DNA of 36,337 bases from a virus, in IMG/VR virus record IMGVR_UViG_3300031223_000002, positions 1-36,337 of that record; one strand, 5' to 3'. Both the position numbers and the translations under genes were made by a program. Positions 16,690-36,337 of the stretch are shown piece after piece. Within the stretch, counting starts at the first letter, position 1; each line of letters begins with the position of its first letter. Below the pieces are notes generated by a model, which was not told the DNA's origin, searched no databases, and worked only from the letters and a program-made list of their open reading frames with translations.

Positions 16690-16789
16690 ACGCCGCTTGG
16701 ATCTTGGAGCGTTGAGGTCGGAGTCGAACCGCCTGCAGTTTCTTGATTATACCTGCGTAGATGGCGCGGTTTATTTTAGTCTTTTCCAT
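16682..16789 (-). CDS. 35-residue basic peptide between TAGT and small terminase
   Basis: ATG at 16789 lies within the end of the glycosyltransferase gene, and TGA at 16682-16684 overlaps the small terminase start. The peptide is MEKTKINRAIYAGIIKKLQA followed by a basic tail. Tight overlap on both sides favours a translated gene, but no homologue is recognised. Part of the DNA looks like a tRNA T-arm, which was tested and rejected. Confidence 0.45.
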   Translation of the reverse strand: MEKTKINRAIYAGIIKKLQAVRLRPQRSKIQAAYD

Positions 16790-17579
16790 TTGCCTTGATT
16801 AGCTTGTTGTTTTTAAACTTTCTAAAGTTGCAAGAATGCTGATACCTTCCCCAGCGTTTATTTATTTTACATACGTCTGGATGCTGGTCTCTTAGGCTTT
16901 TTGCCATCGCATAGCGCCCATCAAATTGTGAATCTTGCTGATAAAGCTGGTCTGTGTTTCCGCCTTTCATTGTCATCGTCGCCGACTTGTCGCAGAGCAG
17001 GCCATTAAATAACATAGTGCAATAGCCCTGCTTTAGAAATCTGATCGAAAGATCAGTGTCTTCATTATATCGGCCTCGCCACCTGGTCGAGACTTTGTTT
17101 GAAAGTAACATGCATGAGTAAACTCTGGTGTTCATCGTGACAGGCAGCTTGGCCGCTCCCTGTGCCGTCGATGAGTTAGTCACAGCAAAGCCCGTGTATT
17201 GCATCCCCGCCATCGGCACATTGACAAATCTAGAGACAAACTTTTCTATTAAGTCAAAGTTAGAGCGGTCCAGAACTGCCACTCGTTTTTTGTTTTTAAG
17301 GATGCGAAAGCCAGAAATATTATCGTCAAGAATCCAGTGTGAGGCGTGACCCTCTTGAATCGAGTGCTCCCACACCCAATTACGCGCCGGTATTCCACCA
17401 AGTCCAAGGTTTGAAAATGGCAAGGTTAGTATCTTTGACGGCTCAATGACAGAGGAGTAATCCGCAAATTCTTGCGGCTCTATCACAATGCGATAAGAAA
17501 CGCCCATAAGCTCCAGGGCTTTAGATGTGAGCCGCGATTCGTGCCGACCTTTTGAAATAATGTAAATTGGTGTAGTCAT
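16776..17579 (-). CDS. TET-associated glycosyltransferase (TAGT) family
   Basis: 267 residues from ATG 17579, which overlaps the ParB-like gene's stop as TAATG; an eight-codon extension is not needed. The sequence shows the landmarks of phage TAGT enzymes: SKGR at 9-12, YRIVIEPQEF at 29-38, LPFSNLGLGGIPARNWVWEH in the 53-72 region, ILDDNI at 83-88 (GT-A-type metal and sugar-nucleotide acid motif), YNEDTDLSIRFL at 171-182, and TMTMKGGNTDQLY at 201-213. TAGTs attach sugars to hydroxymethylated pyrimidines in phage DNA. The upstream ParB-like gene is a usual partner in base hypermodification clusters. The expected TET dioxygenase or hydroxymethylase is not seen in this genome. Family call by motif memory; target base is unknown. 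Confidence 0.85.
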   Translation of the reverse strand: MTTPIYIISKGRHESRLTSKALELMGVSYRIVIEPQEFADYSSVIEPSKILTLPFSNLGLGGIPARNWVWEHSIQEGHASHWILDDNISGFRILKNKKRVAVLDRSNFDLIEKFVSRFVNVPMAGMQYTGFAVTNSSTAQGAAKLPVTMNTRVYSCMLLSNKVSTRWRGRYNEDTDLSIRFLKQGYCTMLFNGLLCDKSATMTMKGGNTDQLYQQDSQFDGRYAMAKSLRDQHPDVCKINKRWGRYQHSCNFRKFKNNKLIKANGKD

Positions 17580-18169
17580 TATGGCTTGGAGGGATACCAG
17601 CAAAACTTAACGTTGTCGGTAATTTTAATGTCAAGCGCCTTCGCGAAACTTGCGCGGCTTTCAGGGTTTGTAAAATGAACTATGATGGTTCCATAACCTT
17701 CCGGAGATCCATCATAGTCGGGCATTTTAGAATTACTCCACTCTTTACTAAGATCAGCCTCTTCGGTCGCAAGGATCGCATCAATCCTCGCTTGGTCAAA
17801 ACCGAGCAAGCTAATGTCAAAATCTTCCGCCTCCAGTTTGGCAATCTCAGCAGCCAGCATTTCCTCGTCCCACTCGATGCCGTAGTCTGCCAGCTTGTTG
17901 TCAGCGATCACGTAAGCGGCCTTCTCGGTTTCGCTGAGTCCGTCGATCACGATGCAAGGGATTTCCTTGAGACCCATTTGCACGGCAGCAACTGAGCGGC
18001 CATGCCCAGCAAGTATCATCCCCGCTTCGTCGATCAGCACTGGGGCGGTAAAACCGAAGCGTTTGATGCTCGCAACAATCTTGTCGATCTGGTCTGCGCT
18101 GTGCTTTTTGGCGTTTCCCGCGTATGGTATCAACGTATCTGTTTTGATTGATATTATTTTATGTTGCAT
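17579..18169 (-). CDS. ParB/Srx-fold protein, base-modification associated
   Basis: 196 residues. A ParB N-terminal fold: PYAGNAKKHSADQIDKIVASI (15-35), IKRFGFTAPVLID (35-47), then the catalytic-loop motif AGHGR at 54-58 and an adjoining IADNKLADYGIEWDEEML helix. Phage ParB-like proteins of this group are thought to act as nucleotide kinases or ATPases in DNA base modification, and here the gene overlaps a TAGT glycosyltransferase gene by one base. It is not a partition ParB: no ParA lies nearby and the central HTH domain is missing. The C-terminal 50 residues are novel (KMPDYDGSPEGYGTI). It follows a CGTAT-N4-ATACG palindrome. Confidence 0.8.
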   Translation of the reverse strand: MQHKIISIKTDTLIPYAGNAKKHSADQIDKIVASIKRFGFTAPVLIDEAGMILAGHGRSVAAVQMGLKEIPCIVIDGLSETEKAAYVIADNKLADYGIEWDEEMLAAEIAKLEAEDFDISLLGFDQARIDAILATEEADLSKEWSNSKMPDYDGSPEGYGTIIVHFTNPESRASFAKALDIKITDNVKFCWYPSKP

Positions 18170-18228: not shown

Positions 18229-18468
18229 CTATGGTGAAAAAGATTCCTTGCCAGCCCCCCTCGCCCTCGCCAGCCCCCCCCCTCGCCAGCCCCCCCTCGC
18301 CAGCCCCCCCCTCGCCAGAGAATCCACCGCCTCGACCATCACAGCGGTTTTGCTGATGCCGTTGGCCGTCGCCAGTCCGTCAAGTTGTTTGATTGTCTCG
18401 TGCGGTAGCCGGAGCGATATCATGCGCCGCTTCTCGGTGATTCGTTTCTGTGATGCTTTTGTTTCCAT
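18229..18468 (-). CDS. Ribbon-helix-helix (CopG/Arc-like) regulator
   Basis: 79 residues from ATG 18468. Residues 5-50, ASQKRITEKRRMISLRLPH then ETIKQLDGLATANGISKTAV and MVEAVD, form an RHH DNA-binding domain: a basic beta strand (RRMISLRLP) and two helices with the GISKTAVM turn. Three copies of TCAATACGTTGA-like DNA lie 8-76 bases upstream, which suggests self-repression. A longer reading from 18555 would run through these sites and has no support. The C-terminal 27 residues are Gly/Arg-rich and come from a poly-G tandem repeat whose length may vary. It probably controls early promoters carrying the same motif. Confidence 0.8.
   Translation of the reverse strand: METKASQKRITEKRRMISLRLPHETIKQLDGLATANGISKTAVMVEAVDSLARGGLARGGWRGGGLARARGAGKESFSP
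18251..18320 (-). repeat. Poly-G tandem repeat in the regulator's 3' end
   Basis: Four imperfect units of CTGGCGAG plus a G run. Run lengths on the plus strand are C6 (18255-18260), C9 (18274-18282), C7 (18290-18296) and C8 (18304-18311). Unequal G runs are slippage-prone; the length alters the frame of the last codons of the regulator. Confidence 0.85.
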
Positions 18469-18476
18469 GTCGTTGA

Positions 18477-18488
18477 TCAATACGTTGA
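18477..18488 (-). promoter_or_regulatory. Operator-like site O1, TCAATACGTTGA
   Basis: Palindromic arms TCAA and TTGA around TACG, eight bases upstream of the regulator start. It matches O3 (18533) and the primase-internal site (18965) exactly. Confidence 0.6.
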
Positions 18489-18512
18489 GTGTGAGATTGT
18501 CAATACTCTGTA

Positions 18513-18524
18513 TTAATACGTTGA
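18513..18524 (-). promoter_or_regulatory. Operator-like site O2, TTAATACGTTGA
   Basis: One mismatch to O1; 36 bases upstream of it. A TAATAC box on the minus strand overlaps this site and could be the -10 element of the regulator's promoter. Confidence 0.5.
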
Positions 18525-18532
18525 GCGTTGAG

Positions 18533-18544
18533 TCAATACGTTGA
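18533..18544 (-). promoter_or_regulatory. Operator-like site O3, TCAATACGTTGA
   Basis: Exact match to O1, 20 bases beyond O2. It overlaps a TTGACT box on the minus strand, a plausible -35 element. Confidence 0.6.
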
Positions 18545-18570: not shown

Positions 18571-18715
18571 TTTTTCATTTATACAGCTTCAAAAAATGAT
18601 CTATACACCCTCTACATCTATTATATTTATACAGCTTATACATCTTCCTATAGATAAGAGACTTATAGAACTACTAAAAAGGAAGCTGTATAAGCTGTAT
18701 AGTTGTAGAGGGAGG
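18571..18715. other. Candidate replication origin: AT-rich region with iterons and a long inverted repeat
   Basis: This non-coding stretch lies directly downstream of the primase-helicase gene. The 10-mer TATACAGCTT occurs at 18580-18589 and 18628-18637 and, inverted, at 18683-18692 and 18692-18701. Two nested inverted repeats flank a 32-base AT-rich loop (18649-18680): CCCTCTACA 18608-18616 with TGTAGAGGG 18704-18712, and a 21-base arm 18628-18648 with 18681-18701 (one mismatch). AT-richness, iterons, dyad symmetry and the neighbouring primase are origin hallmarks. It could instead be a bidirectional transcription stop. Confidence 0.6.
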
Positions 18716-18735: not shown

Positions 18736-20847
18736 CTAAATAAATTCGACCAGATTGCCTACTTTTCGCTCGAATTTGTGATAGTTCCAACCGCTCGTTT
18801 GCCCCTTCGATTTGCCCCACAATTTGCCAGAGTAGCGATCAAGCACCTTCTCCCGTTCAGCGACCGACCCGGTGATTCGATCAAGATTGTTGCGAGCTAA
18901 TGCGCTGTGCGACTTCGCGCCGTCGTCCAATTCGCCGAGAATGTAGTCAATGATCGCCGTGTCCTCAATACGTTGAGCAGCTTCCAATGCCTCGATTTCT
19001 TCGCGTTCAGCAGTCTCGGCGTCAATACGCTTTACCGATTGAAAACGTCGATGCCAGCTCTTTTTCTCGCTCGCATCATATTGAAAGACCGCCTTCATCG
19101 CGTTCGGCCCTCGCAGCTTCGTATTTTCAAAAGCGATTTTGCGGTCGCCAGACTCGCCAGTGATCTCGACTGCTCGCTCGATAGTATAGGCGCAGTCGAA
19201 GTCGCTTTGGAAGTCGCCGACGCCCTCAGCGATAGATTTGCCGTCTGCTGATTTGTTTTTGTTAGTATGAGCGAGCGCAATCAAGGTGCCGCCAGCCTGA
19301 GTGAAGGTGCGCACCATGATGTTAAAGATTCGCGCATCATTCTTATCCATCGTGCTTACAAATTTCTTTAACGTGTCGAGTATGATGACCATCTTGCCGC
19401 AGGCGTCGGCTTTGATCGCCGCCTTTATGATTTTCGAGAGATCGTTCGAGTCGAATCCGTTCTGGTTCGGAATGAGCGTCGTAATGCCCTCGCCGCGTAG
19501 AATCTCCATTTTTTCGATGCCGCCATTAAACGAGTCATCGGCGTTAATGTAGTAGATGCGCAGGTGCTTTGTTTTCGCGCGGTCGCGCTTCGAGAGCAGC
19601 CAGAGCGTGAGCAGAGTTTTTCCCGTGTTCGGCCCGGCGTTCAGTATCGTGCAATCTCCGATCATCGCGATTTCGGGCAGTATGAATACGGCGTCCTGCG
19701 CTCGCCGCTTCATCGCGTTGATATTTGCGTCAGTCGAGGCAGCGAGCTTGTCGAGCGCGTTGAGAAAGTCGTCGTCTGGCGCGTCCGCGATCTCAGCAAT
19801 CGACGCCTTGGCGTCCTGAATCTCGTCGTCAATTGCTTGCCATGAGTTTGCTTCTTTCTCGATCTCGCGCTTGACGAGCGCCTCAATCGAGCGAGCCACT
19901 TCTGGCGAGACGTCTTGCACGCTCGACTCGCCGAAGCCGTCCTCAGCGAGTCTCGTAGCAGCAAGCGCGTAATCGCCGCTATGATAGAGCGTCGCAAACA
20001 GTGCAAACGGGTTGTATGACTTATTCGCTTCGAGTGGCGCGGCCGACGATGACCAACACCAAAACTGCTTGTCTGCCGTGACGCCGAGCGTGCCACTGAC
20101 GCCCGATTCTTTGCCCGGTCGTGTCCAGTGCGAGCCGTTGCGAGTCGTCCAGCCCGCAGAGCGTAGCATCTCAGCCGGATCGGTCTTCACGTTGAAGTCA
20201 TCGCCCGGCGTCAAGCCCTCGTTGGCAGTCGTTGAAGACTTCGGCGACCAGAACGGCAGCGCAGACGGCGCTTCTTTGGTGACTGTCGCAATCGTCGCAG
20301 ACTTCGGATTGTAGTGCGCTTCAGTGTCGTGTGACAAAAAGCACAAGCGCGAGACATCCGAGCAAGCGGCATCAGTCTTAAGACCGAGGTGCGCGAAGTA
20401 ATCGCGCACTGTTGAGAACGCCGCTTTGTGCGTCGCTGCGCAAGTTGCGTCGATCTTGACGCCGATTTTAAGCCCGCCCGACGGCGAGACGAATAAGAAG
20501 TGCGTGTGTTTGTCTGCTCGTAGAATCTCGACAATCTGCGTGAGTTGGCAACTGTTCTCAAACTGCGGATTGTCTTCGAGGTCGAGATCAGCGACCAAGA
20601 TGCCGCTATGCTCGACAAGCGCCGACGCTGATCGCTTTGAGAATACGCCAGACGCCGTGACAGCGGGCAGGCGAGCTTTCAATTCGCTTCGAGTGTCTTT
20701 GTCTGGCGCAGCACGTATCGCGTCGCATTCGTCTTTCAGGCGGTCGCTTTTGATATATTCGATAAGCAATCGAGCGTCGAAATCGCTTGTCGGCGTCGTG
20801 TCTTTGACTGTTTTGAATGTGGAGAATTTTTTCATAGTTTCTTGCAT
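18736..20847 (-). CDS. Primase-helicase (BT4734-like primase plus RepA-like AAA ATPase)
   Basis: 703 residues from ATG 20847, which abuts the RusA stop; ATG 20835 in a GAAACTATG context is an alternative (699 residues). The N-terminal half is an archaeo-eukaryotic-primase-like domain of the BT4734 type: LVADLDLED at 84-92 with metal-binding acids, SPSGGLKIGVKID at 121-133, and SRLCFLSHD at 166-174. The C-terminal half is a RecA-like helicase: Walker A GPNTGKT at 405-411, an IILDTLKKF Walker B segment, and IALAHTNKNKS. The linker is Glu/Ala-rich. One polypeptide would both prime and unwind at the origin candidate just downstream. Confidence 0.85.
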   Translation of the reverse strand: MQETMKKFSTFKTVKDTTPTSDFDARLLIEYIKSDRLKDECDAIRAAPDKDTRSELKARLPAVTASGVFSKRSASALVEHSGILVADLDLEDNPQFENSCQLTQIVEILRADKHTHFLFVSPSGGLKIGVKIDATCAATHKAAFSTVRDYFAHLGLKTDAACSDVSRLCFLSHDTEAHYNPKSATIATVTKEAPSALPFWSPKSSTTANEGLTPGDDFNVKTDPAEMLRSAGWTTRNGSHWTRPGKESGVSGTLGVTADKQFWCWSSSAAPLEANKSYNPFALFATLYHSGDYALAATRLAEDGFGESSVQDVSPEVARSIEALVKREIEKEANSWQAIDDEIQDAKASIAEIADAPDDDFLNALDKLAASTDANINAMKRRAQDAVFILPEIAMIGDCTILNAGPNTGKTLLTLWLLSKRDRAKTKHLRIYYINADDSFNGGIEKMEILRGEGITTLIPNQNGFDSNDLSKIIKAAIKADACGKMVIILDTLKKFVSTMDKNDARIFNIMVRTFTQAGGTLIALAHTNKNKSADGKSIAEGVGDFQSDFDCAYTIERAVEITGESGDRKIAFENTKLRGPNAMKAVFQYDASEKKSWHRRFQSVKRIDAETAEREEIEALEAAQRIEDTAIIDYILGELDDGAKSHSALARNNLDRITGSVAEREKVLDRYSGKLWGKSKGQTSGWNYHKFERKVGNLVEFI
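18965..18976 (-). promoter_or_regulatory. Operator-like site within the primase gene, TCAATACGTTGA
   Basis: Exact match to O1 and O3, lying in the primase coding sequence about 420 bp upstream of them. It could support looping repression or be coincidental in coding DNA. Confidence 0.35.
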
Positions 20848-21189
20848 TTAGTCTTTTACCTCAAAGTGAATCTCCAGTCTCGGCCGCTCACGATCAATCT
20901 CGAATCGAACGCCATCAAAGCCCCACTCGCTGTCGTCTTGCTGACAGCAATCAGCGACGCCGTCGAGATACGCCTTGCAGCTTGCCGAGGCGTTGTCGCG
21001 GTCATGTCTCCGCGTGTCTTTCCACAAGAAGACGAGCCGATAGCTTGCGAACTTCTGAATGCCGACCTGCCTGAACGTCTCGCGCTTCGCCATAGCCCGC
21101 GCGAGCTTCTTAGCCTTTGCGAGCTTGGCCCAATGCACGCGAGCGTTCGGTGACAGCGTTCGGTCTGGTAGCGGGAGGGTTATGGTCAT
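20848..21189 (-). CDS. RusA-family Holliday junction resolvase
   Basis: 113 residues, overlapping the methyltransferase stop by ATGA. It has the RusA pattern: LPLPDRTLSPNARVHWAKLA at the N-terminus, the acidic cluster RHDRDNAS with Asp63 and Asp65 at 61-68, KAYLDGVADC at 72-81, and QDDSEW at 84-89. RusA proteins are dimeric endonucleases that cut four-way junctions formed in phage recombination and replication. Usual length is about 120 residues. It lies between the methyltransferases and the primase. Confidence 0.85.
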   Translation of the reverse strand: MTITLPLPDRTLSPNARVHWAKLAKAKKLARAMAKRETFRQVGIQKFASYRLVFLWKDTRRHDRDNASASCKAYLDGVADCCQQDDSEWGFDGVRFEIDRERPRLEIHFEVKD

Positions 21190-21887
21190 AGTTCTTCGTT
21201 CCCCCTCGCTCGCTTCGCATCTGTGGCGTTCGCCTCAAGGCTCAAAGTCGTCTGGCTAGTCTCACGTTCCACTCTTTCGCATCCAGCTTTGAAGTAGTCC
21301 TTGTCTAACTCTGAGCCTGTGAGGTGTATTCCAGCGTAATGTGCTGAGATTGCGCTACTCATTGAGCCTAGATGCGTATCTAAGACCTTCATGCCCTTCT
21401 CTGCGTAGTTGGCGAAAATCCAGTCGTATAGCTTTACGGGCTTCTGAGTTGGGTGGATTTTTTTATCATAACCCGCACTAAAATGGTGCATGCTAAAACG
21501 TCTAGCTGGCTTATCAAAGCTAGACCATGCTAATTCAAAATCTGACATGTCGTTAGTCCCATTCATTTTATCCCAGCTTAATAGGCTTTTAGTGTTACTT
21601 AAAAAATCAAAAAAATAGTTAGCACCCCATATTATTTGATGATTGCTAACCCTGAAAAGTTCTTTAAAATAAATTTCGTTTGGGGTTTCTCTATCCCAGT
21701 TCTTGTGTTTGTCTTTGGTTAGGCTACCAAATCCACTTTGCTTATTTATATTTATCCCATAAGGCGGATCAACCACGCAAATATCGTAGTAGTTATCAGG
21801 GGTTTGTTTGAGTAGCTCCATGCAATCGCAGTTATATAGCGCGAGTGAATCCGTCTTGTGTGGTGTTCCTAGGTTTTTATAGTTCAT
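21186..21887 (-). CDS. DNA methyltransferase paralogue 2 (DPPY type, variant SAM motif)
   Basis: 233 residues. The catalytic motif DPPYGI is at 40-45, followed by IIWGANY and IHPTQKPVKLYDWIF; the motif-I equivalent is DTHLGSMS at 170-177, after the catalytic motif, as in beta-class N6-adenine or N4-cytosine methyltransferases. It is a tandem paralogue of the gene at 21911: both end in ERETSQTTL-x-LEAN and share near-identical 3' DNA. The Gly of GSGS is Met here, a change also met in some phage enzymes, so activity is possible but unproved. No restriction enzyme is nearby. Lower-GC codon use in its middle part suggests separate divergence of the target-recognition region. Confidence 0.85.
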   Translation of the reverse strand: MNYKNLGTPHKTDSLALYNCDCMELLKQTPDNYYDICVVDPPYGININKQSGFGSLTKDKHKNWDRETPNEIYFKELFRVSNHQIIWGANYFFDFLSNTKSLLSWDKMNGTNDMSDFELAWSSFDKPARRFSMHHFSAGYDKKIHPTQKPVKLYDWIFANYAEKGMKVLDTHLGSMSSAISAHYAGIHLTGSELDKDYFKAGCERVERETSQTTLSLEANATDAKRARGNEEL

Positions 21888-21910
21888 TTAAGCATCTTTC
21901 TAATGTGAAT

Positions 21911-22666
21911 TCATGATTTTCGCTGGTCGGTATCTATGCTAAGGACGTTCGCCTCAAGATTCAAAGTCGTTTGGCTAGTCTCACGTTCTATCCGTTTACA
22001 AGCCGCTAGGAAGTAGTCCTCATCGAGTTCGCAAGCTGTCAGGTGCATCCCCGCGTAATGAGCCGCTATCGCTATGCTTCCGCTTCCCATGTGGGTGTCT
22101 AATACCTTCATCCCATTCTCGGCGTAGTTTTCGAAGATCCAGTCGTATAATTTGACGGGCTTTTGGGTGGGGTGGATGCGTGATTCTTTATTTTTCATAT
22201 CACCCTGCCTCATACCCATCCATGCGAAAGTGAACATCCTCAAAGCTCTGTTGAATGAAGTGTAGGCAAGCTCACCATCTGAGAAATCTCCAGACGCTTC
22301 TTTATTCCAGAATATCCACCCCATACTACTTTGGAAGTGTTGAGGGTAATAGTTCGCGCCCCAAACAATTTGATTTTTTGATACTCGCTGCAGCTCTTTG
22401 AAATATTCACTAGTCGGCGCTGACCCGTCCCAGTCTTTAACTGTATAATCTCCAGCCATTGCGCAAGTCCCCATCCCTCTGCTTTTCTTGCCTTCACCTA
22501 TCCCATAAGGCGGATCAACAACCGCAAGGTCAAAGTGATTGTCTGGATAACTTGCCATCAACTCCATGCAATCCATCCTCTTTAAATCCAAGAAAGGAGA
22601 ACAAGGCGATGATGCCAAGCCCGTTGGGGCTGGTGGCGGAATCGGGGCTGTAGGGCGGGCTGGCAT
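21911..22666 (-). CDS. DNA methyltransferase paralogue 1 (DPPY type)
   Basis: 251 residues from ATG 22666, just after the upstream TAG. A Pro-rich N-terminus (PARPTAPIPPPAPTG) precedes the family core; it may be a poorly chosen start, but residues 25-34 align with the paralogue, so the start must be upstream of Met31. Catalytic motif DPPYGIG is at 51-57 and SAM-binding DTHMGSGS at 190-197 (beta-class order), with IHPTQKPVKLYDWIF between. Exocyclic-amine methylation of A or C is expected, protecting phage DNA from host restriction or marking it. The target sequence is unknown. Confidence 0.88.
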   Translation of the reverse strand: MPARPTAPIPPPAPTGLASSPCSPFLDLKRMDCMELMASYPDNHFDLAVVDPPYGIGEGKKSRGMGTCAMAGDYTVKDWDGSAPTSEYFKELQRVSKNQIVWGANYYPQHFQSSMGWIFWNKEASGDFSDGELAYTSFNRALRMFTFAWMGMRQGDMKNKESRIHPTQKPVKLYDWIFENYAENGMKVLDTHMGSGSIAIAAHYAGMHLTACELDEDYFLAACKRIERETSQTTLNLEANVLSIDTDQRKS

Positions 22667-36104: not shown

Positions 36105-36337
36105 CTAGTAAAGCGCGACGATGGACGTTGCAGTGGTTCCGGTCGCATTGACGCGAGCCGTTTGCACTGGCAGAATCGAGCCGGCAGTGACGCCGACAAA
36201 TACGACTGATTCGCCAGCCGCTTCGCCCGTCAGATCGTCAATTGAAATGTCGCCTGCCGCGCCGACGTAAAGAGCGCGGCACGTGCCGAGTGCTAAATCA
36301 GTGGAGTCGTTCGGAGTGACTGCGCGAGTTGCGCCGC
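36105..36337 (-). CDS. Spike base protein, RcGTA rcc01079-like (3' part)
   Basis: The rest of the gene that starts at 155. Bases 36105-36210 are new; 36211-36337 repeat 1-127. The stop TAG is at 36105-36107. C-terminal reading GVTAGSILPVQTARVNATGT then TATSIVALY is the family's conserved ending. Confidence 0.8.
   Translation of the reverse strand, partial: GATRAVTPNDSTDLALGTCRALYVGAAGDISIDDLTGEAAGESVVFVGVTAGSILPVQTARVNATGTTATSIVALY
36211..36337. repeat. Terminal direct repeat, right copy
   Basis: Identical to 1-127; see the left copy. The junction reads through a single 86-codon gene. Confidence 0.97.

Follow-up and report, generated by a model that had tools for sequence, protein, structure and literature searches.

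Facing iteron arrays 3' of a primase-helicase gene form a probable replication origin in a 36-kb phage genome

We analysed a stretch of viral DNA of 36,337 nucleotides (IMG/VR record IMGVR_UViG_3300031223_000002), which we refer to in its entirety as the window. An identical 127-bp direct repeat occupies both of its ends (1-127 and 36211-36337): the record appears to contain the whole genome, either circularly closed or terminally redundant, so that a genome-wide comparison omits little. The locus of interest has the following features:

18736..20847, minus strand: primase-helicase, 703 aa, with a BT4734-like_N (AEP-type primase) domain and a RecA/KaiC-fold helicase
18739..19038, minus strand: predicted winged helix, the C-terminal 100 aa of the primase-helicase (AF2 mean pLDDT 75)
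18704..18712, minus strand: outer arm 1, CCCTCTACA, which pairs with 18608-18616
18680..18703, minus strand: arm 1 iterons, AC-TATACAGCT-TATACAGCT-TCCT, in 8/9 register with TACAAC at the end of the outer arm
18650..18679, minus strand: AT-rich spacer or loop with 23% GC, a candidate site for unwinding and priming
18657-18649, minus strand: TTATCTATA, directly ahead of arm 2
18628..18649, minus strand: arm 2, inverted iterons, AGGAAGATGTATAAGCTGTATA
18608..18616, minus strand: outer arm 2, TGTAGAGGG, separated from the arm 2 iterons by AT-rich bases
18580..18589, plus strand: stray iteron copy, TATACAGCTT, outside the arms
18477, 18513 and 18533 (18477..18544), no strand assigned: three TCAATACGTTGA-type sites, between the element and the RHH gene
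18229..18468, minus strand: CopG/RHH-like protein (RHH_1, E = 0.0013, a weak match below the curated cut-off)
17579-18169: ParB-like protein

The primase-helicase was assigned through Pfam (PF08800, E = 2.9e-18; PF13481, E = 5.8e-5, under its curated cut-off) and through a PHROG match to primase/helicase; a primase query against genome contigs gave no match. BT4734 is listed among the AEP families (PMC5862659). The full-length AF2 model is of low confidence (pLDDT 46), so we use only its RecA-fold part and its C-terminus, and these with caution: the best fold matches of the helicase part, taken from that low-confidence model, are to RecA/KaiC, and the fold lists of the C-terminal 100 residues contain mostly winged-helix regulators (best Z 8.4, which is middling). 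At its 3' end the RHH gene carries several copies of a G-rich tandem repeat, GGCTGGCGAGGGGGG (18245-18320); the related sequences L003 and L004 have a single copy, and the C-terminus of the RHH protein is thus hypervariable. A DNA-modification cluster surrounds the element (16776-18169 and 21186-22666), with a TET-associated glycosyltransferase domain (PF20691, E 7.7e-39), a ParB-N protein and two N6/N4 methyltransferase-like proteins; this cluster suggests that the phage DNA is modified. Within a minus-strand coding region at 638-789, GCGTTACC occurs four times at an exact spacing of 48 bp.

Read on the primase-sense (minus) strand, the ordered element runs from 18712 to 18608, and about 23-24 bp separate its outer arm from the primase stop (18736 to 18712). 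On either side of the AT-rich spacer is an arm of TATACAGCT-type iterons with a spacing of 8-9 bp, the two arms being inverted; the iteron step is 9 bp and the outer-arm TACAAC lies 8 bp ahead, which gives an 8/9 register, a feature absent from the preliminary description. A preliminary description had placed here, between the primase-helicase and its probable regulator, a repeat present twice directly and twice inverted, inside nested inverted repeats with an AT-rich loop. The position is as described, with the regulator assigned by its weak Pfam match, and the repeats were recovered in full: exact copies of TATACAGCTT lie at 18580-18589 and 18628-18637 (plus) and at 18683-18692 and 18692-18701 (minus), with a one-mismatch copy at 18637-18646 and one such copy elsewhere in the window. 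The outer inverted repeat is a pair of 30-nt arms, 80% complementary, that contains CCCTCTACA and TGTAGAGGG; the inner one has 22-nt arms that are 95% complementary and lie 30 nt apart. The resulting hairpin spans 105 bp, and its predicted DNA fold (-29.4 kcal/mol, z = -7.5) was equalled by none of 200 shuffles. Folding along the window, corrected for GC content, identified the element region as the most structured 150-nt tile. The preliminary description called this region the most AT-rich stretch noticed: at 69.7% AT the 145-bp stretch (18571-18715) is exceeded by only 75 of the 36,192 tiles compared, and the window's peak (72.4%, in a tile starting at 18535) overlaps it. A search against Rfam returned sub-threshold miRNA hairpins only.

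Among relatives of the primase-helicase taken from IMG/VR, most of those with downstream DNA covered have the same layout beside or downstream of the primase, built on different iteron sequences. The elements of L003 and L004 (97%) are near-identical to that of the window and differ in the outer arm by a single compensated double change (in L003, CCCCCTACA paired with TGTAGGGGG). L005 (67%) has TAATACTTA-type iterons and the same TCTTATCTATA ahead of arm 2; L005 and G001 both have TTATCTATA in the same place just ahead of arm 2, a shared 9-mer that arises in 7 of 20,000 shuffles. About eight copies of TACTTACTG face AAGTACAGT in G002/L011, the iterons of G004 are GC-rich (AAGCTGAGC), and those of G001 and G003 differ again. 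The distance to the primase also varies. In L144 and L147 some 90 bp separate the element from the end of the primase or helicase match; it is non-adjacent in G002-G004, about 2.7-3.5 kb beyond the primase, and in G001 it would be about 3 kb downstream on the assumption that the contig is circular. It is absent within 2.6-4.5 kb downstream in G005 and G006. Conservation of the iterons in related genomes had been put forward as a check in the preliminary description: relatives with diverged primases keep the layout but replace the iteron sequence. The iteron in its exact form is not widespread, as matches to tandem TATACARCTT were only coding or satellite; and among the best-folding 40 of 96 IMG/VR stretches with the loop motif TCTTATCTATANGAAG, the hairpin was found only in the window and L005 (and in the contig of L005).

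This layout can be scored blind to the iteron sequence. Our detector seeks two inverted triplets of 7-mers in an 8/9-bp register (maximum score 105). The best score in the window, 84, falls at 18613-18705; 200 shuffles had a mean of 64 and a maximum of 74, and none reached 84. Scores above those of all 200 of their own shuffles were also obtained for L005 (87), G002/L011 (105), G001 (85), G003 (76), G004 (97), L144 (84) and L147 (85). Kharn, a Sphingomonas phage reached via a distant blastn match, has CTATACAACTATACAACTTATACAACTT facing its own inverse, 3' of an NrS-1-type/DUF3987 primase-helicase; it and a second Sphingomonas phage, Birtae, score 105 in the first intergenic gap past the primase, and Lucius and Birtae have Kharn's layout with other iterons. 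In the Verrucomicrobia phage P8625, which has DNA in common with the window at other places, CTATCGGC iterons and a small hairpin lie 3' of a different, Toprim-like primase-helicase; in P8625 and L127 these iterons are clear by eye 3' of the primase and are not the detector's top rank. No significant element was detected in PA73, XAJ2 and VCLv21, which have related primases, or in BPP-1. Two further candidates were set aside: that of IMEAB3 lies upstream of the primase and is borderline (1/200), and that of Seurat is not significant, as judged by eye from the scores.

The detector was then applied to 80 separately fetched loci with a Kharn-type primase-helicase, alongside 80 terminase-locus controls. 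A score of at least 80 was reached at 17 of 80 primase loci versus 1 of 80 terminase loci (Fisher p = 6e-5), and all 17 of these strong elements lie 3' of the primase, where 6.8 were expected (p = 1.8e-7); both p-values are indicative only, because the design of the detector drew on the first few examples and the survey loci are interrelated. Nine strong elements lie within 300 bp of the primase (0.42 expected), and the remaining 63 of the 80 loci score under 80. Changing the register reduced the number of loci that score at least 80 from 17 (8/9) to 8 (9/10, which has the 9-bp step in common with 8/9) and to 0-4 in other registers. The arm-to-arm spacers of the survey elements are about 66 bp, and a search for a spacer motif common to the survey loci gave none that was convincing.

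Could the hairpin instead be a transcription terminator or attenuator, one at which primase transcription stops and which shields the RHH gene? The element does lie between two genes of the same strand, and its RNA would fold into a stable hairpin (z = -6.2). However, a scan of the primase strand found no terminator, and the structure departs from that of an intrinsic terminator, a GC-rich stem followed directly by a U-run: the stem is AT-rich, the loop is long, and the T6 run (18596-18591) begins about 11 nt past the stem. Moreover, L005 has its own GC hairpin with a T-run between the primase stop and the element, the element is kilobases away from the primase in G002-G004, and termination would leave both the 8/9 register and the changing iterons unexplained. 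We consider this reading very improbable.

Short tandem repeats are frequent binding sites of RHH proteins, and the element might accordingly be an operator or a partition (centromere) site of the RHH protein, possibly together with the ParB-like protein at 17579-18169. In the window, L003 and L005, the next gene after the element is of the RHH type (in L005 its product matches RHH_1 with E = 7.4e-7), and the ParB-N protein is close by. There is, however, a better fit for an RHH operator: TCAATACGTTGA, which lies immediately upstream of the RHH gene and elsewhere in the genome. With up to two mismatches, 10 sites of this type occur in the window against 2.65 expected; they cluster before the RHH gene and also lie in other gene gaps (18477, 18513, 18533, 18965, 27347, 32285, 32519), and they are probably operators of a phage regulator, separate from the iterons. 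The survey, for its part, ties the element to the primase; the elements of Kharn, Birtae, P8625, G002 and G004 have no annotated or recognised RHH gene beside them, and no partition ATPase was found among the proteins scanned, a subset of the ORFs. Because other repeats suit the RHH protein better, and because the element follows primases and not RHH genes, we regard an RHH operator or partition site as highly unlikely.

Least probable is an origin that acts as a single-stranded hairpin (a rolling-circle double-strand origin or an RSF1010-type ssi), in which the fold would matter and not the iterons: the hairpin is long and near-perfect, a stem mutation in pRN1 is rescued when symmetry is restored (PMC4234260), and rolling circle was proposed for pRN1 by Joshua et al. 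(as cited in PMC4234260), but the register control favours iterons, the survey arms are set apart by their spacers, and no uHuHuuu motif of an HUH Rep nickase occurs in window ORFs of at least 80 aa, by a simple pattern that a divergent Rep might escape. Hairpin extrusion is itself compatible with an iteron origin, to which it may be an aid.

Position, layout and gene partner together indicate an origin of replication to which the neighbouring primase-helicase binds. On this comparative evidence, the element is very probably the replication origin of the phage, of the P4-crr/PICI type. The preliminary description had likewise proposed an origin, and that is the best supported reading, given the recurrence of the layout in relatives, its enrichment 3' of primases and its likeness to P4 crr and to PICI origins. 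GC skew, another check that it had suggested, lends no support at the element: the cumulative skew of the window has no extremum near 18.6 kb. The primase-helicase is the likely initiator, and its predicted C-terminal winged helix is probably what binds the iterons. We hypothesize that one oligomer would bind per arm, the two in opposite orientations, and that the ATPase ring would then melt the AT-rich spacer, possibly with help from the inverted arms, extruded as a hairpin. Priming on the opened spacer could fall to the N-terminal AEP-type primase domain, with TTATCTATA, more speculatively, as a candidate start or melting motif; two forks would depart in opposite directions, with the phage SSB, the helicase and the host polymerase.

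More tentatively, as a possibility somewhat short of probable, we propose that facing 8/9-bp iteron arrays 3' of a primase-helicase are a general origin layout, one that includes P4 and the PICIs and spans quite different primase-helicases (BT4734-type, NrS-1-type/DUF3987 and Toprim-like). Only a minority of tailed phages have, to our knowledge, an established origin. In such a layout the geometry would be constant and the iteron sequence free to follow its binder, and origins could be findable from sequence alone in many uncharacterised phages: were the layout an origin, its register and position could be used to find the origins of many phage genomes, and the published claim of a PICI-only organisation would fall. 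The free replacement of iterons would then also suggest that these sites determine which replicons are able to use a common replication protein.

Several known systems bear comparison. The oriV of RSF1010, served by RepA, RepB' and RepC, combines iterons and hairpins with a RecA-type helicase (RepA) and an AEP-type primase, and resembles the window in all of these; its long iterons are bound by a separate RepC, and it has two ssi hairpins. In the window, unlike RSF1010, a single protein joins helicase to primase, and no RepC is recognised. Replication of pRN1 needs a 100-bp stem-loop that lies 3' of its primase-helicase gene and that restores replication when moved (PMC4234260); the window likewise has a hairpin of about that length 3' of an AEP primase-helicase gene. 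The pRN1 family also keeps the structure while its sequence changes, and has a CopG/RHH regulator in the replicon, but its authors report no iterons and the RHH gene lies upstream of the primase (PMC4234260). We do see a 9-bp doublet in the stem arms, 3' of the primase gene (e.g., TGTCCATAG TGTCCAACT), in pRN1, pHEN7 and, weakly, pRN2 (L130, L158 and L156, respectively); such doublets are absent in pDL10 and pSSVx, examined afterwards, and in these two plasmids the idea of pRN stems as 9-bp iteron doublets failed.

In phage P4, crr directly follows the alpha primase-helicase gene on its 3' side, and its annotated type-1 repeats (4314 and 4323, plus; 4366 and 4384, minus) are inverted across a spacer at a spacing of 9 bp (and 18 bp); the winged helix of alpha binds the origin repeats (reviewed in PMC4234260). 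Unlike the window element, crr extends over 300 bp, contains two 120-bp direct repeats and is accompanied by a separate ori, and alpha joins a Toprim primase to an SF3 helicase where the window protein has a BT4734-type primase and a RecA/KaiC fold. Both P4 and pRN1 have SF3 helicases, whereas that of the window appears RecA/KaiC-like in a low-confidence model; we therefore liken its working to these systems and do not count it as a demonstrated member. The iterons bound by SCCmec Cch2 and SaPI Rep lie downstream of the genes for these proteins. PICI/SaPI origins, 3' of the pri/rep gene, invariably consist of two iteron sets around an AT-rich region, and PICI rep plus ori has been tested by plasmid maintenance (PMC6092414). 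The window element has that same position and those same parts; PICIs are satellites, whereas the window is the full 36-kb genome of a phage that encodes a terminase of its own. As read from these genomes, a layout that has been called unique to PICIs is one that recurs in ordinary phages.
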